Assembly (NCBI RefSeq): GCF_030282845.1
Contig: NZ_JASTWE010000030.1
Location: 1 to 48,823 of the forward strand
From: Pseudodesulfovibrio pelocollis
GTDB lineage: Bacteria > Desulfobacterota > Desulfovibrionia > Desulfovibrionales > Desulfovibrionaceae
Reading direction: 5' to 3'
DNA length: 48,823 nucleotides
Shown here: positions 1,952-18,978 of the stretch, piece after piece
Layout of the letters: each line of letters opens with the position of its first letter
Numbering within the stretch: position 1 is the stretch's first letter
Notes under the pieces: generated by a model
The model's input: the letters and a program-made list of their open reading frames with translations, nothing else
Database searches by the model: none
What the model was told of the DNA's origin: nothing
Position numbers and translations under genes: made by a program

Positions 1952-3514
1952 TCAGCTTCCCGATGGAGGCGGAATGAGCCGCTTGTTCTCATCCCACATC
2001 AGCTCCTTCTCGGGCAGCAGCGGGAGGTACTTGAACCAGGCGTGGCTGTCCATGTGTTCCTGGCTCTGCTGCAGCTTGCGGGTGTGCTCCAGGATGGGCG
2101 GCACCAACTCCTTGATATCGCCGGACAGGGCCTCGGCCGTGGTGAAGGACGCGGCCTTGATGGCGGTGTCCACGGCCTTCTGGCTGTACTGCTGCGACCG
2201 GGCCAGGGTGTCGAGGGCCTTGGCCGGGTTGTGGAAGCCCACGCTGTTCTCGGCCGAGACCATGTCCCAGAAGAACTGGCCCTTGCGGCACATCTCGCGG
2301 GCGTCGATCATCAGCTGGTCGTAATCGGCGGGCTTGTCGCCCTCGAACTCGGCGGCCATGCGGATGGCCTCGTGCGCCTTGACCGAGACATCCTGGGCGA
2401 TGAGCAGCTGGTCCCATACCTTGTGCTGGGTGTAGAGCACCCGTTCGCGCAGGTATTCCGGGGTCTTGTCGGTGTGGCACTGGCGGCAGGCCTTCATGTC
2501 CGGGTCCTTCAGCGGCGAGTTCCAGTGGTGGTTGGAGATCTTCTTCTTGCCGTCCAGGCGGGTGTAGCTCATGTGGCAGTCGGAGCAGCTCACCCCGGCC
2601 GCGCCATGCACGCCGTTGAACCAGAACTCGTACTCGGGATGCTGGGCCTTGAGCATGGGTGTCTTGGAAACGGGATGGACCCAGTCCACGAAATGCCCCT
2701 CAAAGCCGGGCGTGGTGGTGATGCCGTGGGACTTGTAGTAGGTGTATATCTCCTCGGGGTCCAACCCTTCGGTCCAGGGGAACACGGGCTTCTTGGCCGC
2801 GCCCATGCCCACATCGGTGAAGTAGTATTCCACATGGCACTGGCCGCAGACCAGGGCGCGCTGGTCGTTGCGCGGCAGATCCTTGAACTCCTTGCCTTGG
2901 CCCGCCAGATAGACCTTGAGGGGCTCGGAGTAGAGGCGCAGCTCCATGTTGGTCGGGTTGTGGCAGTTGGCGCAGCCGATGGTGTCGTCGTCCAGGTCCA
3001 CCTGCTCGCGGAATTCGTTGAAATCCTTGGCCCAGAAGTCGTCGCCGTACTCGGCGACCCACTCGTTCATCTTGGGCGTCTTGCAGTTCCAGCAGGTGGC
3101 GGGCAGCCCGGCCTTCTCATTGTAGCGGTCGAGCCGGTCGATGTGCAGGATGTCCTTCATGGCGTAGGTGTGGCCCCGCGCCGCGCGGTATTCGTAGCTG
3201 AAGGGATAGCCCAGCCAGAGGTTCTTCAGGTACGGCTGGGCGTACTTGTAGCCCTCGGGCAGCGGGTTGACGCCGTCGTTCTTGTTGTAGGCCACGGACC
3301 CGCCGTACTCGGTCATGATCTCGGTCTCGTTGTTGCGCAGGTAGGTCTCGTAGTGCAGCGGAAAGTCCGGCTTGAACTTGGAGTTCTTGATTTCGGTTTC
3401 GGGCAGGTCGGTCTTGAAGACCGGGGTCTGCGGTTCGGACACCTCCGAACACGCGATCAGTGCCAGCGCGCACAGGGCGGCCAGCAGGGCGAAAACGGGT
3501 ATGGTTCTACGCAT
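1952..3514 (-). CDS. nrfA: Cytochrome c nitrite reductase, catalytic pentahaem subunit NrfA
   Basis: NrfA reduces nitrite to ammonium with six electrons in the periplasm. The 520-residue protein has a lipobox-like signal (LIAC, Cys22). The diagnostic CWNCK motif (C141/C144/K145) gives the lysine-ligated active-site haem. Four conventional motifs follow: CANCH, CGQCH, CSDCH and CRQCH. Length and motif order fit the family. The start overlaps the end of nrfH by 8 bases, giving the usual NrfH-NrfA pair that forms the membrane-anchored quinol:nitrite reductase of Desulfovibrio and epsilonproteobacteria. The predicted lipid anchor agrees with membrane-bound NrfHA complexes. Identification is firm; detoxification versus respiration cannot be told from sequence. 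Confidence 0.97.
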   Translation of the reverse strand: MRRTIPVFALLAALCALALIACSEVSEPQTPVFKTDLPETEIKNSKFKPDFPLHYETYLRNNETEIMTEYGGSVAYNKNDGVNPLPEGYKYAQPYLKNLWLGYPFSYEYRAARGHTYAMKDILHIDRLDRYNEKAGLPATCWNCKTPKMNEWVAEYGDDFWAKDFNEFREQVDLDDDTIGCANCHNPTNMELRLYSEPLKVYLAGQGKEFKDLPRNDQRALVCGQCHVEYYFTDVGMGAAKKPVFPWTEGLDPEEIYTYYKSHGITTTPGFEGHFVDWVHPVSKTPMLKAQHPEYEFWFNGVHGAAGVSCSDCHMSYTRLDGKKKISNHHWNSPLKDPDMKACRQCHTDKTPEYLRERVLYTQHKVWDQLLIAQDVSVKAHEAIRMAAEFEGDKPADYDQLMIDAREMCRKGQFFWDMVSAENSVGFHNPAKALDTLARSQQYSQKAVDTAIKAASFTTAEALSGDIKELVPPILEHTRKLQQSQEHMDSHAWFKYLPLLPEKELMWDENKRLIPPPSGS

Positions 3515-3983
3515 CGGCGGCGCTCCTTTTGGCTACGGGGATTTTCGGCATGTGGGGCACGCTGCGGTGGCAGTCGGTGCAGTACTGCTTGCTCTGCATG
3601 ACCACCGTGGAGGTGGTCTCCGAGTGGCAGCGCAGGCAGTTGGCCTGGGTCACGTCCTTGGTCTCGCCACCGGGGTGGATGAGATCGGGGATCGTGCTCG
3701 TGGCCGTCACATACATGTCCCGCATCCCTTCCTTGGTCTTGAACGGTATCTTGGCCACCAGATTGTACGGGGCGTGACACTCGTTGCAGGCCAGCTTGGC
3801 GTGAACCGACTGCTGGTGCGTCAGGGCCGCCTCTGACATGGAATGGCAACTGCCGCAAAACGAGGCCTGATCCGTGGTGTGCATGGCCAGGGCCACCCCC
3901 ACGGTCAGAACCACGCCGCCCAGAGCGGGCAGCAGCGCGTAGAGCCATCCCGGGCCGCCGGGGTCGCCTTTCTTGAACAACAT
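3507..3983 (-). CDS. nrfH: Membrane-anchored tetrahaem quinol dehydrogenase NrfH
   Basis: A 158-residue NapC/NirT-family protein that takes electrons from menaquinol and passes them to NrfA. One N-terminal membrane helix (about residues 13-35) is followed by four haem motifs: CGSCH, CNECH, CLRCH and CTDCH. The CGSCHSM start of the haem region is typical of NrfH, where a methionine close to haem 1 serves as ligand. ATG 3983 is preceded by a good AAGGAGG site. It is the first gene of the nrfHA transcription unit; its 5' leader contains a 17-bp palindrome (4008-4024). Confidence 0.96.
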   Translation of the reverse strand: MLFKKGDPGGPGWLYALLPALGGVVLTVGVALAMHTTDQASFCGSCHSMSEAALTHQQSVHAKLACNECHAPYNLVAKIPFKTKEGMRDMYVTATSTIPDLIHPGGETKDVTQANCLRCHSETTSTVVMQSKQYCTDCHRSVPHMPKIPVAKRSAADA

Positions 3984-4220: not shown

Positions 4221-4257
4221 TGCCAATTCTGTATGACAAAAGCAATGTGAGTTGGCA
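4221..4257. promoter_or_regulatory. Spaced inverted repeat upstream of the TetR gene
   Basis: TGCCAA at 4221-4226 and TTGGCA at 4252-4257 form a spaced inverted repeat about 35-70 bases before the TetR start. A shorter CTTTG-tgag-CAAAG palindrome follows at 4262-4275. TetR proteins commonly bind such symmetric sites next to their own gene, so this is a candidate autoregulatory region; it is weak evidence alone. Confidence 0.3.
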
Positions 4258-4290
4258 ATCACTTTGTGAGCAAAGCCGGGACAAACAGCC

Positions 4291-5061: not shown

Positions 5062-8000
5062 TCAGCCCAGGTCCTCTGCCGCCCGGCCCGCGCCGCCGTG
5101 GCTGTTGTGGCCCGGGGTGCCAAGGCGCAGGAGCATGCGGTCGAGCGCCCGGAGGTAGCCGGGGTAGCGCACGAGGTAGAAGGACAGGGCGCGCGAGAAG
5201 TTCCGGCCCACCACGCCGTCCACGAAGAGCTGGGACACGTCGCGCTCGCGCATGAGCACCAGCTGGGACATGAAGAAGATGCGCCGCTCCTCGGGCTTCA
5301 TCTCGCGCAGCAGGGCGGCCAGGGCCGTGGCCGCGCGCGGCTGGTACATCCAGAAGGTGAGCAGGTCCAGGGCGTTGAGCATCACCGCCTTGTCCAGTTC
5401 GTCCACGATCACGCCCCGCTCCTTCAACTGGCGCACCTCGCGGACCATGGTATCGGGGTCGGCCATCATGCGCAGGGTGTCGCGCTCCGGGAAGAGGCAG
5501 TCGAGCCGGGCGTACACGGACAAAACCTGGGCGATCTTGCCCCGGTAGTCCCACAGCCGCAGGCGCACGTTGGCCCCCCGGTCGGCCAGCCCCTCGATGC
5601 CGCCTGCCACGCAGTCCGAGGCGAGCTTGGAGATGACGGCCGCCCACTGCTGGAGCACCGGATCGACCGCAGCCACGCCCCCGGCCGCCAGGGCCAGCCC
5701 GGCCACCCAGTTGAAGGCCACGGCCAGGGGGATGGACAGCGCGCTGCGGAAGAGATTCCAGAAGGCCGCCTCACGGGGCAACCCCCGGAACATGTTGTGG
5801 CTGAAGATGTACAGGCCGTTGGTCAGACCCATGACCGCGTAGAGCAGCACCGGGTTGGTGGCGGTGGTGATGCCCAGGCCCGCGTCGAGGAGCACGCCCT
5901 TGCACAGCCAGTCGAGCAGGGGCACGGAAAAACCGGTGAACATGAGGGAGTCGGCGATGCGGCTCCAGTTGACGTACTGGTGCCAGCGCAGGAGCGACAG
6001 GCTGCCCACCCCGCCGCCGCCCAGCACGGACTGGACCACGTTGCGCCCGGCCGTGATGCCCAGCCAGATGAAGGCCCCGAAGTAGGCGAGCAGCCACCAG
6101 TCCTTGCTCAGGGAAAATGTCAGGAAGGCCGGAACGAACCCGATGAACACCTTGAGCCAGTTGCGCAGGGTGGTGTTCAGGTAGAAGGGCGTGAGCCGTT
6201 CCGCCCGGTCCCGGGCATCGGGTTCGGCTAGGGACAGGCCGTTGCTGGTCTCGGTCAGCCCGCCGAGCATGGCGATGTTGCCGCAGCGGCCCGGGGTGAT
6301 GCGCGTGCGCTCCGAGATATAGTCCACCTCGCGGGCGCGGCCCAGGCGGCGCAGCACGGGCACGCGGTCCAGCACCGCCCGGACCCTGCGACCAAGGGGC
6401 GTCACAGCCTCCACCGGCGAATAGGTGTGGCGCTCGCGCACCGTGGTGGCGATGGGCAGACACACGCCCCGGCCCTGGCCCCACCCTCGACGCGATCCCC
6501 CGCGGGCCATGTGCGCGGCGCGCGGCGGCAGGGTTTCGAGTACGGCAAAGCCCATGCCGAAGCTGCGCGAGCTGTGGCCGGTGGAGCCGCTGCCGATGCA
6601 TGTGTGCAGCGGATTGTGGCGATACAGTCCGGCCAGGGTGTTGATGTCCGCCAGTATCTCGCGCAGCTTGACCGCCTCGTCGCTCTCGGCGCAGTCCATG
6701 TCGCCCAGGCAGAGCTGGTCGATGTTGTCCAGGAGTATGTGCTTGAGGGCCACCACGTCGCCCCGATTGAGGGCCTCGCGCAGCTCGCCCAGGTCCTCGC
6801 CGTCGCGGAAGCGGTTGTCGGCCACGTCGCGCAGGCTGAAGAGCTCGAGGTGGTTGATCAGGCCTTTGGCGTCGTAGAGCAGTTCGATGACATCGGCCTG
6901 GGTCAGGTCCACGGTGTTGAGTATGAACCGGTTGACCGAGTGCAGACCGCGAAGCCGGTGCATCAACTCCAGCGGGGAGAGGGTCAGCAATTCGGGATCA
7001 TCGGCCGAGGGGGCCGTGGGGTTGGGCAGCCCGGGATTGTCGCCGGGCAGCAGGTAGCGCTGCACAAAGGTGTCGGCGTCCAGGGCGTCCAGGGTGTCCA
7101 CCTGCATCTCGATGTCGCGCCGGGCATCGAGGTCGTCTGTGGCGGCGTACTCGGCGCGCAGGGCCTCGGCCCGCTCGCGCATCAGGGGCAGTGCGGTCCT
7201 GTGGATGAAGCCGCCGAGGTGGAGCAGCGAGGGCTGGCCCGAGCCCACGAAGGACTCGAAATCCCCGCGCTCCAGCCGGGGCAGGTCCAGCCCGAATTCG
7301 CGCAGGATGGACGCGCGGTGCTGGTCGTTGAAGGCCTCAAGCACGGCATACACATACTTGCGCCTGAAGCGCGACGCCTCGCGACCCAGGGCCATGAAGT
7401 CGCGCACTGGCTCGGACTCCAGAAAACGCAGGTATTCGCCCTGCTCGGTAAACCCCTTGGGCTCCCAGATGACGTTCACGAACCGCTCGCGGTGCCGGGC
7501 GGCCATCTCCACGCCCACATGGACCTCCACGTCCATGATCCTCGCCGCCTCAAGCAGCTCCCGGGCCACATCGGGCCGCACGAAGTTGTAGTAGACCACG
7601 GTCAGCCGCCGGATGCCCTTGATCCAGGCGTCCATGATCAGGTGGGTGGGCGACTTGCGGCCCTTGGTGTTGGCGTCGTGGACCCGGTCGTCAAAGGTGA
7701 TCTGGTTCCACGCCTCTGGCATCTCCATCAGGTGGTACTTGGCCAGCTGCGCCCTGATCATGCGCGGCCTGCCCGTGGCCGCCACGCGGAATTCGTGCGC
7801 CAGCCTGAGCTGCTCCAGGCTGCCGCGCGGGGCGCGCACCAGCTCCTTCATGATCTGTAGGAGCACCCGGGCCGTGTTGCGCCGCATGAATCCGGTGGGC
7901 GCTGTCAGCACCTCGTCGCGCAGGGAGCGCAGGGCCTGGAGCCGCTCGCTGGCCAGACCGGTTTCCAGGGAGCCGAGCAGGCTGGCCACGGCGTAGGCGA

Positions 8001-8175
8001 TGCGCAGGTTGGCGGTGGAGGCCAGGGCCTTGATGCCGTTGGGATGCAGAAAGGGCTCGAGCAGCGTCTTGACGTCGCGGCCCTGCCGCCGGGCCGGATC
8101 GAGCACGTCGTTGACCACGGCCAACAGCCGGTGGTCCGAGGGGTCGAAGAAGATGCGGGGCACCCGAGGCAGCAT
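5062..8175 (-). CDS. Conserved-looking 1037-residue protein with membrane C-terminal region, function unknown
   Basis: A very long single gene. Residues 1-650 look soluble, with helical repeats and an alpha/beta-like stretch near 190-250 (LTVVYYNFVRPDVARELLE, then VEVHVGVEM). Residues about 670-850 contain several hydrophobic segments separated by conserved-looking motifs such as GITAGRNVVQSVLGGGG, SHNMFRGLP and TGFSVPLLDWL. The last 180 residues are soluble and helical. ATG 8175 has GGGAGAAGGG upstream. I do not recognise a named domain and assign no reaction. It is divergent from the octaheme cytochrome operon and convergent with the TetR gene, so it is probably a monocistronic unit. Confidence 0.8.
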   Translation of the reverse strand: MLPRVPRIFFDPSDHRLLAVVNDVLDPARRQGRDVKTLLEPFLHPNGIKALASTANLRIAYAVASLLGSLETGLASERLQALRSLRDEVLTAPTGFMRRNTARVLLQIMKELVRAPRGSLEQLRLAHEFRVAATGRPRMIRAQLAKYHLMEMPEAWNQITFDDRVHDANTKGRKSPTHLIMDAWIKGIRRLTVVYYNFVRPDVARELLEAARIMDVEVHVGVEMAARHRERFVNVIWEPKGFTEQGEYLRFLESEPVRDFMALGREASRFRRKYVYAVLEAFNDQHRASILREFGLDLPRLERGDFESFVGSGQPSLLHLGGFIHRTALPLMRERAEALRAEYAATDDLDARRDIEMQVDTLDALDADTFVQRYLLPGDNPGLPNPTAPSADDPELLTLSPLELMHRLRGLHSVNRFILNTVDLTQADVIELLYDAKGLINHLELFSLRDVADNRFRDGEDLGELREALNRGDVVALKHILLDNIDQLCLGDMDCAESDEAVKLREILADINTLAGLYRHNPLHTCIGSGSTGHSSRSFGMGFAVLETLPPRAAHMARGGSRRGWGQGRGVCLPIATTVRERHTYSPVEAVTPLGRRVRAVLDRVPVLRRLGRAREVDYISERTRITPGRCGNIAMLGGLTETSNGLSLAEPDARDRAERLTPFYLNTTLRNWLKVFIGFVPAFLTFSLSKDWWLLAYFGAFIWLGITAGRNVVQSVLGGGGVGSLSLLRWHQYVNWSRIADSLMFTGFSVPLLDWLCKGVLLDAGLGITTATNPVLLYAVMGLTNGLYIFSHNMFRGLPREAAFWNLFRSALSIPLAVAFNWVAGLALAAGGVAAVDPVLQQWAAVISKLASDCVAGGIEGLADRGANVRLRLWDYRGKIAQVLSVYARLDCLFPERDTLRMMADPDTMVREVRQLKERGVIVDELDKAVMLNALDLLTFWMYQPRAATALAALLREMKPEERRIFFMSQLVLMRERDVSQLFVDGVVGRNFSRALSFYLVRYPGYLRALDRMLLRLGTPGHNSHGGAGRAAEDLG

Positions 8176-8433
8176 GAAACACCCTTCTCCCGGCAGATCA
8201 GCCGGGCGTCACCTGATTGTCGAATTCGTGTTCTTCTTTTCACGATTCCAGCGATCTGACTGAAATGTCAAGGAGAAGTTCCAGAAACGCTGCGACCGCC
8301 GCCCGGTTCGGGCCGTGCCGTGCCGTGCCGGATGATTCTCTCTCCAGGAGCGTTGCTCTTTGTTGAATATATGAGTAACCATGGAACTGACTCAACCCCC
8401 CGCCCAGGCGGGGACAGCCAGCAAGGAGGACCC

Positions 8434-10185
8434 ATGCGCAACACTGTCTGGGGAGTGCTTCTCCTGACCCTTGCCTGGGCGCTGCCGTGCGCCCTGCCTG
8501 CCCCGGCTGACGCGGCCCCGGCCCCGGGCTTGACCCCGGGTTCGACCCCGGGTTCGACCGAGGACACGGCCCCGGGCCGTGCCCTGGCCATCCAGGCCAC
8601 CCGGGCCAAGCCCGAGGTGCGCAGCACCACCGCCGACCACGGCAGGTTCGAGGTGCTGCACTTCGACGCGGAAAAGCAGAAAACCATGCAACCCGAGGAA
8701 GTGACCCGGACCTGCCTTGGTTGCCACAATCTCGCGGCGCTCCAGTTTCACCAGTCCATCCACTGGACCTGGCGCGACACCGAGGGCCAGCCCGAGAATT
8801 TCGGCAAGGGGGCGCTCTCGGTCAACAACTTCTGAATCAACATCATCAGCAACGAGGCTCGTTGCACCTCATGTCACGCAGGATACGGATGGAAGGACGA
8901 CACCTTCGACTTCACGGCCCAGGACAAGGTGGACTGTCTGGTCTGCCACGAGCAGACAGGCACCTACCGCAAGTTTCCTTCCGGCGCGGGCTATCCCGCC
9001 CCCTATGTGGAGGACCCGGCCAATCCGGGCACCCAGAAGGGTGTTCCCTTTCCGGGCGAGAGCAAATCCTATTTCGCCCCTGACTGGTCCCGGGTGGCCC
9101 AGAGCGTGGCCCGCCCCTCGCGCATGAACTGCGGCACCTGCCACTTCTACGGCGGCGGCGGCGACGCGGTGAAGCACGGCGACCTGGACTCCACCATGGG
9201 CCGACCGCCCAAGACCCTGGACGTCCACATGGGCACGCGCGAATCCGGCGGCCAGGACTTCACCTGCGTGCGCTGCCACACCACGCACAGCCACCACATT
9301 GCCGGGCGCATCTACGAGACCCCGGCCGCGGCCGAGCGCAAGAGCCTGCTCCAGGACGACCTGGGCGACAAGATCCTGTGCGAGTCCTGCCACGGCACCG
9401 AGCCGCACCAGAGCGGCGGCATGTCCGACAAGATCAACGACCACACGGACACGGTCTCCTGCCAGGCCTGCCACATTCCCGAGTTCGCCCGCGCCCAGTC
9501 CACCAAGATGTGGTGGGACTGGTCCAAGGCCGGGCAACTCATGGACGGCAAGGAAGTGGTCATGGGCCCGGACGGCAAGTCCGTCTTCGACAGGAAGAAG
9601 GGCGAATTCCGCTGGGAGAAGAACGTGGTTCCGGAATACTACTGGTTCGACGGAACCCTGGACCACGTCACCGTGGCCGACCCCATCGACCCCACGGCCG
9701 AGGTCTGGCTGAACAGGCCCCAGGGCTCGGCCGACGACCCGAACTCGCGCATCATGCCCTTCAAGGTGCACCGGGCCATGGCCCCCTACGACAAGGTCAA
9801 CAAGGTCATGGTCATCCCGCACCTGTTCCCCTTCAACAAGGACGACGACACCGCCTACTGGAAGGGATACGACTGGAACCGGGCCATCGAGGTGGGCATG
9901 GAAAAGGCCGGGCAACCCTACAGTGGCGAGTACGGCTTTGTCGAGACCACCTACGTCTTCCCCACCACCCACATGGTGGCTCCCAAGAACGAGGCTCTGC
10001 CCTGCGAGGCGTGCCACTCGCGCCAGAGCCGGCTGGCCGGGATCACCGAGGTCTACATGCCCGGCCGCGACACCTTCGCCATGGTGGACGCGGCAGGCTG
10101 GGTCGGCGTGACCGGGGCCATGGTGGCCGTCATCATCCACGGCCTGATGCGCTTCGTCTCCGGCCTGAGAAGGAAGGAGGAATAG
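8434..10185 (+). CDS. Octaheme tetrathionate-reductase-like cytochrome c with in-frame TGA (probable selenocysteine)
   Basis: Read through the TGA at codon 134, this is a 583-residue exported cytochrome. It has a signal peptide (residues 1-27), one haem motif (CLGCH, 94-98) before the TGA, then CTSCH, CLVCH, CGTCH, CVRCH, CESCH, CQACH and CEACH, and finally a C-terminal membrane helix. CGTCH (233-237) is followed by GGGGDAVKHGD; D244 and K247 match the spacing of the active-site Asp150/Lys153 of Shewanella octaheme tetrathionate reductase. The TGA follows VNNF, where I recall homologues having the active-site cysteine (Cys64). Start ATG 8434 has AAGGAGGA upstream. Both halves are in one frame, and a SECIS-like hairpin follows the TGA. 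The alternative is a nonsense mutation or sequencing error. Cytochrome b follows after 2 bases. Natural substrate unknown. Confidence 0.85.
8833..8835 (+). other. In-frame TGA, probable selenocysteine codon 134
   Basis: The only stop codon in an otherwise continuous frame from 8434 to 10185. The flanking residues (VNNF before, INIISNEARC after) are well-formed parts of the octaheme cytochrome family, so the break lies in the middle of a conserved region. TGA differs from a cysteine codon (TGC/TGT) by one base, the usual Cys/Sec exchange. Confidence 0.75.
8849..8865 (+). promoter_or_regulatory. Bacterial SECIS-like hairpin
   Basis: GCAACGA-ggc-TCGTTGC, a perfect 7-bp stem, begins 13 bases after the TGA, with the first G of the loop about 20 bases from it. 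Known bacterial SECIS elements have a small stem-loop within the coding region, an apical loop roughly 16-37 bases after the UGA, and a G in the first loop positions. All three conditions are met. Confidence 0.7.
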
Positions 10186-10187
10186 CC

Positions 10188-10844
10188 ATGACACACCAGC
10201 CCCTGGTCAAGATATACCTGTATTCCAAGTTCGAGCGCTTCTGGCACTGGGTCCAGTCGGCGCTGATCATCCTGCTGCTGGTCACGGGGTTCGAGGTCCA
10301 CGGCAGCTTCGCCTGGCTCGGCTTCATGGCCGCGGTGGACCTGCACAACACCATCGGCCTGACCTGGCTGATCCTGTTCGTGTTCATCGTCTTCTGGCTC
10401 TTTGTCACCGGCGAATACAAGCAGTACATCCCCACCACCAGGAAACTCCTGGAGGTGGTCCGCTACTACGCCTCGGGCATCTTCCGGGGCGAGCCGCACC
10501 CGGTGCGCAAGAGCCGCGTGGCCAAGCACAATCCCATGCAGCGGCTGACCTACCTGGGCCTGACAGCCGTGCTTCTGCCGGTGCAGATGGCCACCGGGCT
10601 GCTCTACTGGAGCTACAACGACTGGCCCGCCTGGGGGCTGGACGGGTTCCTCAGCCTCAAGGTGCTGGCCCTGGTCCATCTCATCGGCGGGTTCGCCATC
10701 CTCATCTTCCTCATCGTCCACGTGTACATGACCACCACCGGACACACCGTGACCGCGCACATCGCGGCCATGTTCTCCGGCTGGGAGGAAGTGCCCGAGG
10801 GCGAGGAAGTGGAAGACTGGGAGCGCATGTCCGAGCGCCGCTGA
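10188..10844 (+). CDS. Cytochrome b561-type membrane subunit partnered with the octaheme cytochrome
   Basis: A 218-residue integral membrane protein with four to five helices and well-placed histidines (ERFWHWVQ near the N-terminus, VDLHNTIGL, LVHLIGGF and LIVHVYMTTTGH). This is the pattern of prokaryotic cytochrome b561/Ni-Fe hydrogenase-type b subunits that oxidise menaquinol. ATG 10188 is preceded by AAGGAGG and lies 2 bases after the cytochrome stop, so the two are co-translated. The likely role is to move electrons between the quinone pool and the periplasmic octaheme protein. A strong hairpin follows. Confidence 0.88.
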   Translation: MTHQPLVKIYLYSKFERFWHWVQSALIILLLVTGFEVHGSFAWLGFMAAVDLHNTIGLTWLILFVFIVFWLFVTGEYKQYIPTTRKLLEVVRYYASGIFRGEPHPVRKSRVAKHNPMQRLTYLGLTAVLLPVQMATGLLYWSYNDWPAWGLDGFLSLKVLALVHLIGGFAILIFLIVHVYMTTTGHTVTAHIAAMFSGWEEVPEGEEVEDWERMSERR

Positions 10845-11040: not shown

Positions 11041-14000
11041 ATGAACGCCACCAAGCTGAAAACCCGCATCATCATCGTCCTCGCCCTGATCGTGGCTGTC
11101 CAGGCGGTCTGGATTGCCCGGTCCCCGTCCCTGCCCGACGACGGCATCACGGTCGGCGAGGTGCGCGTCAGCCCGGACCGAACCGCCATCGAGGTGGCCC
11201 TGACCGGCCCGGCCGACACCGCTTCCATCCCGGCCGACGAGGCGGCCACCATCCTCCCGGCCCTGGATGGCCGGTGGCGCTGGGCCAATCCCTACCTGCT
11301 CCGCTTCGAGACCCGCGCTCCCATGCCTGAGGAGGCGGAATACACCGTGGAGATGCGCCCGGCACTGAACCTGACTGGCGAGCACACCTTCATCGTGGGC
11401 ACCGGTTCCTTTGCCCTCTCGGCCATCTCCCTGTCCGAGCAGGCGGGCGACGCCCCGGCCAGCGCGGTGATCGCGGCCGTCCTCGAATTCACCGGGCCGG
11501 TTTCGCCCGAGAACATCCTGACCCATGCCCGGCTCGTCAACGAGGCGGACGGCAGCGAGGTCCCGCTTCGGGCCATGACCTCGTGGACCTCGCGCTACAT
11601 GGAGCTGCGCTCGGACCCGGTGATCAAGACCCCCGAGGGCAGCACCTATGTCCTGACCGTGTCGCGCGCCCTGAAAAAGGCGGGCTCGGCCCTGTCCCTA
11701 AGCCGCGACGCCACGGCCTCCATCCCGGTGCGTCTGGACCCGGTCCTGGCCTATCGCGGGGCCGACGCATGGTCCTCGGCCACTGGCTCGGGCATCCGGC
11801 TGACCTTTTCCACGCCCATGGACGCGCGCCGTGCCGCCCCCTTTGTCTCCATCCAGCCATCGGCGGACCACTCCCTGTCCGCCGACGGCGCGGCCCTGCT
11901 CCTCTCGGGCGGGCTCGCCCCCGGCACGCGCTACACCGTGACCCTGCGCCAGGGCCTGACCGCCGCCGACGGCGCGATCCTGAAGGCGGACGAAACCGCC
12001 TCCCTGACCGTGCCGGACGTGACTCCGTCGGTTGATTTCGTGGGCACCGGCCTGTTCCTGCCCCCGGGCCGCAAGGCCGGGCTTGCGCTGTCCGTGGTCA
12101 ATGCGGATCGGGTTGAACTGCGCGTGGACCGGGTCTACCCCAACAACCTCTTCTCCATGCTCGGCGACTACGGCAGCCGCCTCTTCGAGGACACCTGGGA
12201 CTATGGCGGGGTGCCCGACACCCTGGGCGGACGGATATTCGAGACCACCCTGGGCGTCGAGGGAGGGCGCAACGTCCTGGTGCGCCTGCCGGTGCGGCTC
12301 GACGCCATCCGCGCGGGCGAGCGCGGCCTGTTCCGGCTCAGCGCGTCCATCCCGGGCCAGTCCGGGGTCCAGCGCTGGCTCGCCCTGACCGACATCGGCC
12401 TGACCGCCAAGCGAGGGGCCGAGGGCTTCCTGGTCTGGGCGGTGTCAAACACCAGCCTGGCTCCCCTGCCCGGCACCCGACTGACCCTGATCAGCGACCG
12501 AAACCAGCGCCTCGGTTCGGCCGTGGCCGATGCCAGCGGCACGGCGCGGATCGCCCTGCCGCCAGCAGACCCGGGGAGGGCGGACCACGACGGAACAGCC
12601 GACCGGGGACCGGGCGCGCCCTTCATGCTCCTGGCCGAGCGCGACGACGACTTCGCCTTTCTCCTGCTCGCGCGCGCGGCCGTGGACACCACGGGCCTGG
12701 ACGTGGCCGGGGCACAGGCCACCTCCTCGGGTCTGCGCGCCTACCTCTACGGCGAGCGCGACCTGTACCGCCCGGGCGAGACCGCCCAGGGCGTGGCCGT
12801 CATTCGCAGGGACGACCTGACCATACCCGCCTCCATGCCCCTGTCCCTGGTCCAGCGCGACCCGCGCGGACGCGAGGTGCGCAAGCTGCGCCTGGACAGC
12901 GGCCCGGCCGGGGCCGTGCCCTTTGCCCTGGATTTGCCCGGCTACGCCCTGACCGGGACCCACGCCCTGGAGCTGCTGGCCGGTGACACCCTCATCGGCT
13001 CGACCCCCCTCAAGGTGGAGGAGTTCGTGCCGGACAGGATCAAGGTGGCGGTGACCACCCCGGCCGACGCCTTTGCCCCGGGCCAGGAAATCCGGGCCGG
13101 AGTGAGCGCCGAGTATCTCTTCGGCCCGCCCGCCTCGGCCCTGCCTGTCGCGCTGCGCGTTCAGCTGCGCCCGGCCCCGTTCACGGCCCGGGGATTTGAG
13201 GACTATCTCTTCGGCGACCCGGACGCTCCCTTTGCGCCCCAGGAGATATTCTCCGAAAACGCCGCCCTCGACGAGGCAGGCCGGGCCGATTTCGCCGTGG
13301 CCATCCCGTCCTCCCTCACCCCGCCGGCCGCCCTTGAGGCGATCATCCTCGCCCGGGTCAGCGAGGCGGGCGGGCGCGGGGTCACGGCCCGCAAGCGGGT
13401 GGTGGTCCACCCCCACCCCTATTACCTCGGCCTGCGCCAGATGGAGCGCAAGGGACTCGACCCGGGCAAGCCCGCCACCTTCGACTTCGTGGCCGTGGAC
13501 ACCGGCGGCGAGGCCACAGCCCACGGCCCCCTCTCGGCCCGGCTATATCGCGACCGCTGGCGCACGGCCGTGCGCCTGACCCCCTCGGGCAGCTACCGCT
13601 ACGAGTCGGTCAACGACCCCGAGCTGCTGGCCGAGCAGACCATCCCGGCCGGAACCGGCCCGGGCTCCGTGACCTTCACCCCGCCCGACCACGGCAGCTA
13701 CCGGGTGCGCGTGACCCCGGCCGACCCCGCCGCCTCGGGCGCATCGACCGTGGCCGCCTTCTTCTGCGGCGGCTGGGGCGACTCGCCCTGGGCGCTGGAA
13801 AATCCGGCCCGGGTGGAGCTGGTGGCGGACAAGGACCACTATCTGGCCGGGGAAAACGCCCTGATCCAGATTCGCGCCCCCTTCCCGGGTCGGCTGCTGG
13901 TGGCCGTGGAGGGCCGCTTTGTCAACGACGTGCGCGTGGTGGAGCTTGAGGGCAACACCGGCGAGGTCGTCATCCCGGTGCGCGAGACATACGGTCCCAA

Positions 14001-16458
14001 CGTCCATGTCACGGCCCTGCTGGTGCGCAAGGCGTCGGACGTGGCCGAGGGCTCGGTGGGCCGCGCCTTCGGGGCCATTCCCCTGCTGGTGGACACCGGA
14101 GCCAACCGGCTGGACGTGACCGTGGACGCCCCGGCCGAGGTTCGGCCCGAGGCCGAGCTTGAGCTGGCCGTGCGCCTTCGGGGCGATGTCCGGCCCGGCA
14201 CGCTGGTGACCATCGCGGCCGTGGACGAGGGCATCCTCCAGCTCTCTGGCGCGGGCGACCCGGACCCCTTCGGCTTCTTCCACGCCCGCCGCGCCCTGGG
14301 CGTGACCACCTACGACACCTTTGCCATGCTCTATCCCGATCTGGCCCGGGTTCTGGGCGCGGCCGCGGCAGGCGGCGGCATGGACCTCGCGGCCGAGAGC
14401 CAATTCATGCGCACCGAGTCCATCCGCCGGATCACGCCCGTGGCCTTCTGGTCCGGGCCTCTCCCCGTGGGCGAGGACAGCACCGTGCGCTGGCGCGTGA
14501 CCCTGCCCGACTTCCAGGGCGCGCTGCGCGTGGTGGCCGTGGGCCTCGACGGTAAGCGCTTCGGCACGGGCCGGGCCATGGTCCGTGTGCGCTCGCCCCT
14601 GGCCGTGACCCCAACCCTGCCGCGCTTCATGGCTCCGGACGACGAAATCGAAATGCCCGTGACCGTGCGCAACGATCTTGACGCGGACAGCGCCGCCATC
14701 ACCCTGACCGTCACGGCCTCGGGCGCGCTGACCACCACGGCCGAGCCGCTGACCCTTGACCTGAAGCACGGCGAGGAGCAGACCGTGTACGTGCCGGTCT
14801 CGGCCCTGCCCGGCCCGGGCGGCGACGGCACGGTCACGGTGACGGCCACTGGCACGGCATCAGCAACGGGCACGGCCTCGGGGCCGGGCACAATCGAAAC
14901 GCGCCGGGTGGTCACCCACCTGCCTGTGCGCCCGGCCGCGCCCATGCGCCGCGAGCTGGCCTTTGGCGCGCTGGACACGCCGTCGGGCGAGCTGGTCCCG
15001 GCCGCCCAAGGCTTTGTGCCCGGCACCGCGACCCGCTCGGTGACCCTGGGCGGGCTGCCCCTGGCCCGGTTCGCGGGCAGGCTCGATAACCTCCTGACCT
15101 ACCCCTACGGCTGCGCCGAGCAGGTGGCCTCCCAGGCCCTGCCCCTGATCCGATTCGGCCATCTGGCCCGCGAGTTCGCGCCCTCCCTGGCGGGCGAACG
15201 CGGCCCGGCCTTCATGGTCCAATCAGCCATCATGCGCCTGCAATCCCTGCAAACGGACAACGGCGGATTCGCCCTGTGGCCGGGCGGCAACGAGGATTCT
15301 GGCTGGGTGAGCGCGTACGTCACCCTGTTCCTGGTGGAGGCGGCCCGGGCGGGCTATGCATCGCCGGGCATGACCAGCCGAGCCCTGGAGCGCATGACCG
15401 GCCTGGCCGCCTCGCGCCCGGCCGACCCCGCGATGGCCGCCCTGGCCCTCTACAACCTCGCCCTGGCAGGCCGCCCGGACCGGGGGGCCATGGACGAACT
15501 GCGCGACAGGAAGCCCGGCCCCCTGCCCGATCTGGCGCGCACCCTGCTGGGCTCTGCCTATGCCCTGGCCGGTGACATGGACTCCTTCAACGGGCTGCTG
15601 GCGACCCGGCCCCGGGCGGGCGAGGGACGCCAGCCGGGCGGGGGCATGGGCTCGGGCCTGCGCGACGCGGCCCTGATGCTCCTGGCCCTGGCCGAGGCCG
15701 CGCCCAGCGACCCCCTGGTGCCGGAACTGGCCGCAGACGTGGCCCGGCGCATGACCGCCCCGGACTGGGGCACCACCCAGGAGAACGGCCTCGCCTTCGC
15801 CGCCCTGGGCAGAACCCTGGCCGGGATCGACCCCGCGCCCCTGACCGGCCGCCTCGACGCCGGGGACTGGACCGCGGACTTTGCCGATGCGGCCAGCGTG
15901 ACCCTGGACACGGACATGGCCGACGCCCCCCTGACAGTGGACCTCGGCGCGCACAACGCCACTGTCTACTGGTCCGTGGTCACCCGGGGCGTGCCCCTGC
16001 CCGAAAGCCTCGCGCCCGTCAGCCAAGGCCTGGAGATTCGGCGCACCTTCCTCGACAGGACAGGCGCGGCCGTGGACATGACCAGCCTGGCCCAGGGCGC
16101 GCTGGTGATCATGAAGACAGAGGTGCGCGCACCGCACGGCGGGGTGGAGAACGTGGCCATCCAGTGCCTGCTGCCGGCGGGCCTTGAGGTGGAGAACCCG
16201 CGCCTTGAGACCACCGAGACCGCACCCCTGGCCCGTGACGACGAGCTGCCCCTGTCCGGCCACCAGGACCTGCGCGACGACCGGGTGCTCTTCTTCACCG
16301 ACCTGCCCCGCCCGGGCTGGCATGCGGGCTACACCCAGCTGCGGGCCGTGACCCCGGGCAGTTTTGCCCTGCCCCCGGTCCAGGCAGAAGCCATGTACGA
16401 CCCGGACATCACGGCCTCGGACGGGCCAAGCCGCATGGCCGTGACCAGACAGCCCTAG
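11041..16458 (+). CDS. Bacterial alpha-2-macroglobulin (YfhM/MagD type)
   Basis: A 1805-residue periplasmic protease trap. An N-terminal hydrophobic helix (about 10-28) is a signal or membrane anchor with no clear lipobox. Successive macroglobulin-like beta domains and the central bait region follow (A2M-type MG7/MG10 motifs such as LYRPGET and FVPDRIKV, near 610 and 660). The thioester motif YGCAEQ, with C1358 and Q1361, then begins the alpha-helical thioester domain. Family members capture proteases by thioester bonding after bait cleavage, protecting the envelope. The intact CxEQ motif argues it is active. ATG 11041 has GGAGGGAG upstream; the frame is open further 5' but that part would overlap the preceding terminator. 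pbpC follows after 6 bases, as in Escherichia coli. Confidence 0.93.
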   Translation: MNATKLKTRIIIVLALIVAVQAVWIARSPSLPDDGITVGEVRVSPDRTAIEVALTGPADTASIPADEAATILPALDGRWRWANPYLLRFETRAPMPEEAEYTVEMRPALNLTGEHTFIVGTGSFALSAISLSEQAGDAPASAVIAAVLEFTGPVSPENILTHARLVNEADGSEVPLRAMTSWTSRYMELRSDPVIKTPEGSTYVLTVSRALKKAGSALSLSRDATASIPVRLDPVLAYRGADAWSSATGSGIRLTFSTPMDARRAAPFVSIQPSADHSLSADGAALLLSGGLAPGTRYTVTLRQGLTAADGAILKADETASLTVPDVTPSVDFVGTGLFLPPGRKAGLALSVVNADRVELRVDRVYPNNLFSMLGDYGSRLFEDTWDYGGVPDTLGGRIFETTLGVEGGRNVLVRLPVRLDAIRAGERGLFRLSASIPGQSGVQRWLALTDIGLTAKRGAEGFLVWAVSNTSLAPLPGTRLTLISDRNQRLGSAVADASGTARIALPPADPGRADHDGTADRGPGAPFMLLAERDDDFAFLLLARAAVDTTGLDVAGAQATSSGLRAYLYGERDLYRPGETAQGVAVIRRDDLTIPASMPLSLVQRDPRGREVRKLRLDSGPAGAVPFALDLPGYALTGTHALELLAGDTLIGSTPLKVEEFVPDRIKVAVTTPADAFAPGQEIRAGVSAEYLFGPPASALPVALRVQLRPAPFTARGFEDYLFGDPDAPFAPQEIFSENAALDEAGRADFAVAIPSSLTPPAALEAIILARVSEAGGRGVTARKRVVVHPHPYYLGLRQMERKGLDPGKPATFDFVAVDTGGEATAHGPLSARLYRDRWRTAVRLTPSGSYRYESVNDPELLAEQTIPAGTGPGSVTFTPPDHGSYRVRVTPADPAASGASTVAAFFCGGWGDSPWALENPARVELVADKDHYLAGENALIQIRAPFPGRLLVAVEGRFVNDVRVVELEGNTGEVVIPVRETYGPNVHVTALLVRKASDVAEGSVGRAFGAIPLLVDTGANRLDVTVDAPAEVRPEAELELAVRLRGDVRPGTLVTIAAVDEGILQLSGAGDPDPFGFFHARRALGVTTYDTFAMLYPDLARVLGAAAAGGGMDLAAESQFMRTESIRRITPVAFWSGPLPVGEDSTVRWRVTLPDFQGALRVVAVGLDGKRFGTGRAMVRVRSPLAVTPTLPRFMAPDDEIEMPVTVRNDLDADSAAITLTVTASGALTTTAEPLTLDLKHGEEQTVYVPVSALPGPGGDGTVTVTATGTASATGTASGPGTIETRRVVTHLPVRPAAPMRRELAFGALDTPSGELVPAAQGFVPGTATRSVTLGGLPLARFAGRLDNLLTYPYGCAEQVASQALPLIRFGHLAREFAPSLAGERGPAFMVQSAIMRLQSLQTDNGGFALWPGGNEDSGWVSAYVTLFLVEAARAGYASPGMTSRALERMTGLAASRPADPAMAALALYNLALAGRPDRGAMDELRDRKPGPLPDLARTLLGSAYALAGDMDSFNGLLATRPRAGEGRQPGGGMGSGLRDAALMLLALAEAAPSDPLVPELAADVARRMTAPDWGTTQENGLAFAALGRTLAGIDPAPLTGRLDAGDWTADFADAASVTLDTDMADAPLTVDLGAHNATVYWSVVTRGVPLPESLAPVSQGLEIRRTFLDRTGAAVDMTSLAQGALVIMKTEVRAPHGGVENVAIQCLLPAGLEVENPRLETTETAPLARDDELPLSGHQDLRDDRVLFFTDLPRPGWHAGYTQLRAVTPGSFALPPVQAEAMYDPDITASDGPSRMAVTRQP

Positions 16459-16464
16459 CCCGGC

Positions 16465-18978
16465 ATGATCGGACTGGCGCGACGGCTCGGGCAGGCGGCC
16501 CGCTCGGTGCGGCTGCCCTGGCCTCAACGGGCGTGGGCACGGCTGGCCCTGATATTGGCTGGCCTGATGCTGGTCGCGCCATTGGCCTTCCTGGTGCTGG
16601 ACGCGCTCTTTCCGCTCCCGGCCGGGTGGCTCGACGCGCCCTCGGGAACCCGGCTGCTGGACCGCTCCGGCACCGAGCTGCGCCGCTTTCCGGCCAGCGA
16701 CGGCCAGTGGCGGTTCCCGGTGACCCTGGAAGAGGTCTCGCCCGCCCTGGTCACGGCCCTGGTGGAGTCCGAGGACCGCTGGTTCTTCGTCCACCCCGGC
16801 GTCAACCCCCTGGCCGTGCTCCGCGCCGCCTGGACCAACGCGGCCTCGGGCCGGGTGGTGTCGGGCGCGTCCACCATCCCCATGCAGCTGGCACGCATGG
16901 CCGACCCCGGCCCGCGCACCCTGCGCCGAAAACTGATCGAATCCTTCCGCGCCCTGCAATTGGGCCTGACCCGCTCCAAGACACAGCTGCTCGAAGCGTA
17001 CCTCAACACCGCGCCCTTTGGCGGCAACATCGTGGGCGTGGGCGCGGCCGCGCGCATCTATTTCGGCAAGCCGCCGGACCGGCTCTCCCTGGGCGAATGC
17101 GCCCTCTTGGCCGTGCTGCCCCGTGCGCCCAACCGCTACGATCCCTCGCGCCACCCCGAAGCGGCCATGACTGTGCGCGACCAGGTGCTGACCCTGCTGG
17201 CCAAGCGCAAGGCCGTGGACGCGGACGAAGCAGCCCGGGCCATGCGCCAGCCCATGGTGGCCCAGCGCAGGCCATCGCCCATGCTCGCCCCGCATTTTTG
17301 CCTGCTGACCCGCGCCCGGCTCGGGGCCGAGCCGGTCATCGCCACCTCCCTGGACCTCGCCCGCCAGCGGACCGTGGAGCGGCTGCTGGCCCGCCATGTG
17401 GAGCGGCTGCGCGACCTTGGCATCGGCAACGGCGCGGTGGTGGTCCTGGACCGGACCAGTCGCGAGGTGCTGGCCCTGGCCGGGTCGGCGGACTTTGCCG
17501 ACGACCGCCGCCAGGGGCAGGTGAACAACGCGCTGGCCCCGCGCTCGCCCGGCTCCACCCTCAAGCCCCTGCTCTACGCCCTGGCCTTTGACCGGGGCCT
17601 GGCTGTGCCCGGCTCGCGGCTGCTGGATGTGCCCGTGGACTACGCCGGATACGCGCCCGAGAACTACACCGGAATCTTCTCGGGCCGGGTGACCACGGCC
17701 GAGGCCCTGACCCGATCCCTCAACGTCCCGGCCGTGCGCCTGCTGGCCAGCACCGGCCTGCGCGACTTCCACGCCCTGTTGCGCCAAGGGGGGCTTGAGA
17801 CCATCGACCGACCGGCGACAAGCTACGGCCTGCCCCTGGTCCTTGGCGCATGCGAGGTGCGGCTTGTGGACCTGACCAATGTCTACGCCACCCTGGCCCA
17901 GGGCGGGGAGCACCGCCCCTGGCGGGTCACGCCCCCGGCCATGCCCGAGGCCGGGTCAAGCGAATCGTCAGGCTCGGGAGCAGCGTCTGGGCCGAGCGCA
18001 CAGCTGTTCTCGCCCGAGGCGGCCCGGGTGATAGCGACCATGCTCACCGAGGTGACGCGGCCCGACATGCCCGACTCCTGGCGGCTGACCCGTGACCGGC
18101 CAGCCGCAGCCTGGAAGACCGGCACCTCCTTTGGCCACCGCGACGCCTGGGCCGTGGGCTTTGGCCCGACCCTGGCCGTGGGCGTCTGGGTGGGCAATCC
18201 GGACGGCACGCCGGTCAAGGGCATCTCGGGCGCGGTCCACGCCGGGCCGATCTTCTTCGACGTGCTGCGCGCCCTGGACCAACCGGGCCGCGATCTGCGG
18301 CTGCCCGAGGCCCCGGCTCTGCGCAGCGTGACCCTGTGCGCAGCCAGCGGCCTGCCCGCCGGGACGGATTGCCCGGCCACCGTCGAGAGTCCGGCCGGGC
18401 CGACCCTGGCCCTGCCCCGCTGCGCCGAGCACCGCCGGGTTCTGGTGGATTCGGCCACCGGCCTGCGCCTGGAAGGGAGCTGCCTGACCGCGCCCGTGCC
18501 CGGCGGCCGGGCCGTGGCCAGAGAGGTGCAGACCGTGCCGCCCGAGCTGGCCGCATGGCTGGCCGCCCAGGGCAAGCCCGTGCCCGGCCTGCCCGCCCTC
18601 TCGCCCCTGTGCCCGGACGTGCCCGAGGGCCTGGGGCCGGCCATCCTCTCGCCCTCGCCCGCCACCCCCTATATCCTGCGCCACGACGCCCCGGCCCACC
18701 ACCAGCAGGTGGCGCTACGGGCCGCGCCCGCCGACCCGGGCGACTCCCTGTGGTGGTATGTGGATGGCCGCTTCCTGGGCGTCGTGCACGGATCGTCATA
18801 CGAATACATTACCAAAAAAAACGACGAATCAGATGGTGGAAAGAATCTTTTTTCAGGCCACGAACCGGCCGTTCTCTTCTGGCCCATGGCCCCGGGTGAG
18901 CACCGCGCCTCGGTCACGGACAGCCAGGGGCGGACATCGTCCGTGACCTTCCGCGTTCTGGACCGCATGGCCCCCTGA
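16465..18978 (+). CDS. pbpC: Penicillin-binding protein 1C
   Basis: An 837-residue bifunctional peptidoglycan synthase-like protein. The order is a membrane anchor (about 25-50), a GT51 glycosyltransferase with ESEDRWFFVHPG (E103), a transpeptidase with Ser364 in STLK, S418-L-N420 and K551-TGTS, and a C-terminal BiPBP_C immunoglobulin-like domain. All catalytic motifs are present. PBP1C accompanies alpha-2-macroglobulin in many Gram-negatives, where the pair is proposed to repair and defend a damaged envelope. The start is 6 bases after the A2M stop. The 3' end contains an A-rich patch (about 18810-18850) but the frame remains open to the usual length. Confidence 0.95.
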   Translation: MIGLARRLGQAARSVRLPWPQRAWARLALILAGLMLVAPLAFLVLDALFPLPAGWLDAPSGTRLLDRSGTELRRFPASDGQWRFPVTLEEVSPALVTALVESEDRWFFVHPGVNPLAVLRAAWTNAASGRVVSGASTIPMQLARMADPGPRTLRRKLIESFRALQLGLTRSKTQLLEAYLNTAPFGGNIVGVGAAARIYFGKPPDRLSLGECALLAVLPRAPNRYDPSRHPEAAMTVRDQVLTLLAKRKAVDADEAARAMRQPMVAQRRPSPMLAPHFCLLTRARLGAEPVIATSLDLARQRTVERLLARHVERLRDLGIGNGAVVVLDRTSREVLALAGSADFADDRRQGQVNNALAPRSPGSTLKPLLYALAFDRGLAVPGSRLLDVPVDYAGYAPENYTGIFSGRVTTAEALTRSLNVPAVRLLASTGLRDFHALLRQGGLETIDRPATSYGLPLVLGACEVRLVDLTNVYATLAQGGEHRPWRVTPPAMPEAGSSESSGSGAASGPSAQLFSPEAARVIATMLTEVTRPDMPDSWRLTRDRPAAAWKTGTSFGHRDAWAVGFGPTLAVGVWVGNPDGTPVKGISGAVHAGPIFFDVLRALDQPGRDLRLPEAPALRSVTLCAASGLPAGTDCPATVESPAGPTLALPRCAEHRRVLVDSATGLRLEGSCLTAPVPGGRAVAREVQTVPPELAAWLAAQGKPVPGLPALSPLCPDVPEGLGPAILSPSPATPYILRHDAPAHHQQVALRAAPADPGDSLWWYVDGRFLGVVHGSSYEYITKKNDESDGGKNLFSGHEPAVLFWPMAPGEHRASVTDSQGRTSSVTFRVLDRMAP

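Follow-up and report, generated by a model that had tools for sequence, protein, structure and literature searches.

The window, meaning the whole stretch of DNA that was analysed, comprises 48,823 nucleotides of Pseudodesulfovibrio pelocollis (contig NZ_JASTWE010000030.1, positions 1 to 48,823, forward strand). At 8434-10185 it contains a reading frame for an octaheme c-type cytochrome in which one in-frame TGA (8833-8835, codon 134) is the sole break; a plain call of open reading frames (ORFs) splits the gene at this codon. Read through, the frame encodes a 583-residue protein that scores 579.3 bits against TIGR04315, the tetrathionate reductase family (curated cut-off 375), and that has the fold of its best-studied relative, the octaheme tetrathionate reductase of Shewanella oneidensis (1SP3). 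One CxxCH haem motif precedes the TGA (residue 94) and seven follow it (residues 144, 168, 233, 278, 316, 343 and 524), and the AlphaFold model begins and ends with helices (residues 2-15 and 549-582). The initial annotation had described a frame divided in this way, with a signal peptide, an Asp-x-x-Lys block, a membrane helix and a cytochrome b gene directly behind it, and all of these were recovered. Judged from its sequence, the gene product appears to be an octaheme respiratory enzyme of a sulfate reducer, with selenocysteine (Sec) at the position of a Cys in the Shewanella enzyme. The features of the locus are as follows:

8434..10185 (+): 583-residue octaheme c-type cytochrome of the tetrathionate reductase family, with predicted Sec134; TIGR04315 score
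8434..8517 (+): residues 1 to about 28, likely a signal peptide; hydrophobic N-terminus MRNTVWGVLLLTLAWALPCALPAPADAA and model helix 2-15
8713..8727 (+): haem motif 1, CLGCH, residue 94; from the sequence
8833..8835 (+): TGA read as Sec134, at the Cys64 column of 1SP3; alignment, Cys or TGA in 218/218 homologues
8849..8865 (+): hairpin of the selenocysteine insertion sequence (SECIS) type; arms 8849-8855 and 8859-8865, loop GGC 8856-8858, 20 nucleotides (nt) past the TGA
8863..8877 (+): haem motif 2, CTSCH, residue 144, putative reactive haem with the Lys ligand, as judged from 1SP3; H148 in 218/218
8935..8949 (+): haem motif 3, CLVCH, residue 168; from the sequence
9130..9144 (+): haem motif 4, CGTCH, residue 233; from the sequence
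9163..9174 (+): Asp244-Ala-Val-Lys247, matching Asp150 and Lys153 of 1SP3; alignment
9265..9279 (+): haem motif 5, CVRCH, residue 278; from the sequence
9379..9393 (+): haem motif 6, CESCH, residue 316; from the sequence
9460..9474 (+): haem motif 7, CQACH, residue 343; from the sequence
10003..10017 (+): haem motif 8, CEACH, residue 524; from the sequence
10078..10179 (+): hydrophobic helix at the C-terminus (residues 549-582), likely anchoring the protein in the membrane; model and sequence
10188..10844 (+): cytochrome b561-type membrane partner, 218 residues; PF01292 at 96 bits, start 2 bases past the octaheme stop

In 1SP3 we take the Lys-ligated reactive haem to be haem number 2 and the ligand Lys to be residue 153, as counted on the alignment. 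By this correspondence Lys247 of the window protein is expected to be the axial ligand of the active-site haem.

Cys and TGA at one column of the family

The initial annotation had placed the putative Sec at the Cys64 column of octaheme tetrathionate reductases, and the alignment with Shewanella 1SP3 does pair residue 134 with Cys64. Homologues were collected from a family search of the order (348 genomes, 107 with a match above the cut-off; the class-level search covered the same 348 genomes again), from a search of the phylum (395 genomes drawn, 69 with a match), and from 80 named contigs out of 124 relatives found. Among the 224 extracted rows column 134 holds Cys in 152, TGA in 71 and a gap in one. 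After removal of the row without the column and of five duplicates, 218 non-identical homologues remain, with Cys in 150, TGA in 68 and no other residue; all copies listed with one TGA were fetched and Cys copies only in part, so that the ratio 68:150 is not a natural frequency. Every one of the 150 rows without TGA thus carries Cys, and other genomes of the group again have TGA at this codon, as the initial annotation had proposed to check. Lys247 and His148 are each present in 218/218.

Among the matches listed, from which the low-scoring end is cut off, those with one TGA number 32 from the order and 33 from the phylum, or 64 in total as the window copy is in both. All 64 have the TGA at the window's aligned codon, although its placement in L234 and L235, the two most divergent copies, depends on the alignments. 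A TGA copy is also found in seven of the 80 named contigs (L137, L142, L148, L151, L158, L190 and L199), which are titled as Desulfo- or Thermodesulfobacteria-type or 'Deltaproteobacteria' organisms. The closest relative, L062 from another genome of the genus, likewise has TGA. Between the window gene and L062 the nonsynonymous and synonymous divergences past the TGA (dN/dS) are 0.036/0.356 over 429 codons. This indicates that the region behind the TGA has been selected as protein.

Hairpins downstream of the TGA and the selenocysteine machinery

The hairpin counts refer to the 196 rows (66 Sec, 130 Cys) in which the next CxxCH lies 10 residues further on; the 22 rows without this spacing (20 Cys, 2 Sec) were excluded. 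The 66 Sec rows fall into two hairpin designs. Type 1 (36 rows, including the window) has arms GCAACGA and TCGTTGC around a loop GGC (34) or GTC (2) that starts at nt 21 after the TGA, and its 17 bases are constant apart from one loop base. Type 2 (30 rows) has arms CTGGTGC and GCACCAG around a loop AGGT (27) or AGTT (3) that starts at nt 25, a loop which presumably resembles that of the Escherichia coli formate dehydrogenase SECIS. All seven base pairs form in 36/36 type-1 and 30/30 type-2 rows, the latter including a G-T pair in three rows and a change on both sides in one (L232). Among the 130 Cys rows the full seven type-1 pairs occur in one and the full type-2 pairs in none. In type 1, codons +6 to +10 are constant in every row, save for Ser in place of Ala at +8 in two; codon +5 is AGC in 33 rows and a Gly codon in three, and there is free variation on either side, at codons +1 to +4 and +11 to +17. 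The freezing of the hairpin codons next to variable neighbours points to selection on the RNA.

A 2026 review (PMC13188914) gives the limits of a bacterial SECIS (bSECIS) as a loop of 3-9 nt, a stem of 4-16 bp, a G in the first two loop positions, a spacing of 16-37 nt and an energy of at most -7.5 kcal/mol. Compared with these published limits by hand, the window hairpin lies within all of them (3 nt loop, 7 bp, G first, 20 nt spacing, and -9.0 kcal/mol for the fold of nt 9-40), a favourable outcome for the SECIS check that the initial annotation had called for. Both designs fit the limits, and the energy of nt 9-40 is -8.9 kcal/mol or lower in 66/66 Sec rows (comparison of energies among rows: p 5e-26, kinship ignored). 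The combined pattern of TGA, spacing and hairpin has one exact match in the genome, the window gene itself. With up to three mismatches there is one extra match, which is the same hairpin on the opposite strand; a backward control pattern also gives one.

The window genome contains all four components of the machinery that the initial annotation had asked for, with matches of 82.3 bits for tRNA-Sec (selC), 374 for SelB, 613 for SelA and 323 for SelD. The gene for SelD (G000:C73:6726-7655, L238) itself has an in-frame TGA near the N-terminus, likely an internal example of Sec use in this genome. A tRNA-Sec was found in 56/60 genomes with a TGA copy. It was also found in 77/80 Cys-only genomes searched (80 taken from 113), and loss of the machinery as the usual cause of the Cys forms was rejected on this count.

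A true stop or sequencing error, leaving a broken gene with an untranslated downstream part, would agree with the mechanical ORF call and with a hairpin energy that is not extreme by itself, but has a negligible probability given TGA in 68 non-identical homologues against Cys in the remaining 150, protein-level selection past the TGA, and codons frozen solely inside the hairpin. An alternative explanation is that a near-cognate tRNA (Trp or Cys) reads the TGA, to which evidence at the level of DNA alone is open. However, the genome has the complete Sec machinery, the hairpin is inside the bSECIS limits, and the column swaps with Cys only, never with Trp, in 218 rows. Near-cognate read-through therefore retains only a very small probability, and it was rejected, together with the broken gene and the sequencing error, on column conservation, selection, hairpin and machinery.

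The alignment was extended to far relatives in 31 rows, some of whose loci overlap; the column holds Cys in 26 and TGA in five, and nothing else. Two genes of a far octaheme-like subfamily, L242 (G606:C73:4387-5736) and L243 (G497:C98:15381-16700), have TGA at the same aligned column, seven CxxCH motifs and an apparent CX4CH motif, and are 69% identical to each other. They are the same far Sec genes as L235 and L234, fetched twice. The other relatives found, 33-43% identical, carry Cys; the exceptions, L260 and L263, belong to the main family as type-2 Sec copies. In G497 a Cys paralogue lies immediately upstream of L243. The type-1 and type-2 hairpins are both absent from L234 and L235, and no clean SECIS could be assigned to them.

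Exchange of Cys and Sec and the 13-haem branch

The distribution of Cys and Sec was mapped on a tree of 169 rows from which the trait's columns, low-scoring rows, and near-copies more than 86% identical within one state were excluded; the tree is quick and unrooted, so that gain and loss are not separable on it. It requires at least 14 changes between Cys and Sec, ten of them forced by well-supported (starred) branches, and the type 2 hairpin occurs in two places. The approximately unbiased (AU) test does not allow the 20 type-1 Sec rows with eight haems to form a single clade (log-likelihood 429 lower, p 3e-78); it was run on a 70-row subtree after the type-1 rows had already been seen scattered on the 169-row tree. 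The clearest case of a recent change is L140, a locus from one metagenome-assembled genome of Desulfatitalea sp., in which the codon is TGT (4244-4246) and all 17/17 bases of the type-1 hairpin persist (4260-4276). From its sequence, this is likely a very recent Sec-to-Cys change.

The hairpin appears to come at a price to the protein. The residue at +8 is Pro in 101/130 Cys rows; L063, from the window's own genus, has Cys and Pro as well. Among the Sec rows it is Ala (34) or Ser (2) in type 1 and Cys (30/30) in type 2. Among ten independent pairs from all rows, Sec went with a residue other than Pro in 6.7, the reverse held in 0, and 3.3 were ties (p 0.016). Restricted to rows with Glu at +7 (eight pairs), this link is not significant (4.7 pairs in favour, 0 opposed and 3.3 tied, p 0.0625); in the same eight pairs Sec went with the Arg codon CGT in 6.7, with 0 against and 1.3 ties (p 0.016). 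We infer that the bases of the loop and arm dictate the residues at +8.

A branch of the family with 13 CxxCH motifs, five followed by eight in the family domain (L064-L089, e.g., L068 and L073), has Sec in 12 copies and Cys in 14. A cytochrome b gene follows none of the 23 copies of this branch with room for one. Downstream of the other copies, a relative of the window's cytochrome b is found in 24/24 type-1 Sec, 26/30 type-2 Sec, 0/2 far Sec and 116/130 Cys eight-haem loci, counting loci with room; nine further loci had no room. Three genomes (G295, G310 and G055) have Sec in an 8-haem as well as in a 13-haem copy, and two (G289 and G020) combine a Cys 8-haem copy with a Sec 13-haem copy.

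We think it probable that these proteins form a multihaem reductase superfamily with an exchangeable thiol or selenol beside a Lys-ligated haem. Sec would have entered the column at least twice independently, by way of unrelated hairpins whose loops start at nt 21 in one and nt 25 in the other, with perhaps a third entry in the far subfamily; Cys would have replaced Sec many times with the machinery kept. In overwriting the protein beside the active site (Pro to Ala in one design, Pro to Cys in the other), the RNA signal would tax the enzyme, a cost that selenium must repay.

Proposed function and relation to known selenoproteins

These results support the earlier interpretation of the locus. 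It is very probable that the gene product is an octaheme cytochrome of full length, periplasmic and anchored in the membrane, and that SelA, SelB, tRNA-Sec and SelD, directed by the hairpin at 8849-8865, insert Sec at codon 134. Sec134 would stand in for Cys64 of the Shewanella enzyme, just ahead of haem motif 2, the iron of which would carry Lys247 as axial ligand. Electrons from quinol would pass through the cytochrome b and the haem chain to reach this haem, the expected site of reduction of a small oxyanion of sulfur or nitrogen. As a selenolate is more nucleophilic than a thiolate, it would join in catalysis, for example by attacking an S-S bond of tetrathionate. Cys64 of 1SP3 presumably sits in the pocket of the active-site haem. 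No text on a role of Cys64 was found in our literature search, which did not cover the 2004 structure paper and most subscription papers. A Lys ligand of the active-site haem of the Shewanella enzyme is described in PMC12285233.

Sec might also be inserted without being catalytic; it could ligate a haem in one redox state, guard against irreversible oxidation, or matter in folding. Cys and Sec swap where the machinery is mostly present, and the tRNA-Sec of the Cys-only genomes suggests that the enzyme can do without Sec. The 13-haem paralogue has Sec as well, though no cytochrome b adjoins it. However, in the rows examined the column is exclusively Cys or Sec, far relatives included, like a catalytic thiol, and a non-catalytic Sec seems to us unlikely, though a serious contender. 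The chances are about even that the substrate in vivo is not tetrathionate but nitrite, hydroxylamine or another sulfur compound, or that the enzyme works in the oxidative direction. One Cys locus (L188, Desulfospira) adjoins a gene for a triple rhodanese protein (2826-3926), and another (L155, Solemya symbiont) genes for an HAO-like multihaem cytochrome and a NapC-type protein (6146-8285); these neighbours hint at sulfur or nitrogen roles. The family label and the close match to 1SP3 speak for tetrathionate, though they do not settle the substrate.

Several points weigh against the proposed reading of the gene. The Shewanella octaheme enzyme can reduce nitrite and hydroxylamine, according to a title cited in PMC8840924, which also favours another substrate. 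Neighbours other than cytochrome b vary among the few loci inspected and indicate no substrate. Asp244 is present in 191/218 homologues and so is not invariant. The 53-nt fold of the window is only moderately stable (z -1.83, equalled by 10/200 shuffles). Four of the 60 genomes with a TGA copy gave no tRNA-Sec match at E 1e-10 with stricter filters, at completeness values of 89% (G058), 84% (G053), 96% (G456) and 92% (G510). The AlphaFold model was made with Cys substituted for Sec and with the haems left out, and the support as a whole is at the level of DNA and sequence.

The initial annotation knew of no Sec member of this cytochrome family, but a table row of PMC13188914 already lists TIGR04315 as a selenoprotein family, with one accession, the remark 'GenBank annotated' and the Sec motif 'not available'. 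That entry and the window gene share the family model and a single Sec. Term searches of PMC13188914 gave no position, hairpin, distribution or function for the family. In the literature search described above only this review names TIGR04315 as a selenoprotein family, and no account of Sec at the Cys64-column site was found. The window gene is thus a further member of a listed selenoprotein family; the present analysis adds its catalytic column, both hairpin designs, the recurrent swaps of Cys and Sec, the hairpin-linked protein changes and the 13-haem Sec branch.

Compared with 1SP3, also of TIGR04315, the window protein has Sec for Cys64 and a C-terminal membrane helix that lies outside the aligned stretch; its gene adjoins one for a cytochrome b, the Shewanella locus being outside the comparison. 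ExtKL of Geobacter (NF040886), a selenoprotein candidate since 2007 (PMC1914089), resembles the window protein as a c-type cytochrome with several haems whose gene has an in-frame TGA (PMC1914089, PMC5877670), but differs in having five N-terminal haem motifs and a C-terminal part without characterized relatives (PMC1914089). The window protein matches four NCBIfam models, and NF040886 is not one of them.

The close Sec/Cys pairs within one genus and the repeated swaps offer a natural test of selenium in a haem enzyme; with these pairs and the L140 Cys gene with its full hairpin, an advantage of Sec would be directly measurable. To our knowledge, natural selenoenzymes with selenium beside a catalytic haem have hardly been studied. 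The frozen hairpin codons are a clear case of an RNA signal setting protein sequence near an active site. For annotation, plain ORF calling halves such Sec genes.

On the other side of the octaheme gene lies a divergent neighbour, a 1037-residue frame at 5062-8175 (-) with zero Pfam matches at E 0.001. Further downstream, at 11041-18978 (+), Pfam domains identify an alpha-2-macroglobulin-like gene and, behind it, one resembling penicillin-binding protein 1C; the two are often paired in bacteria.
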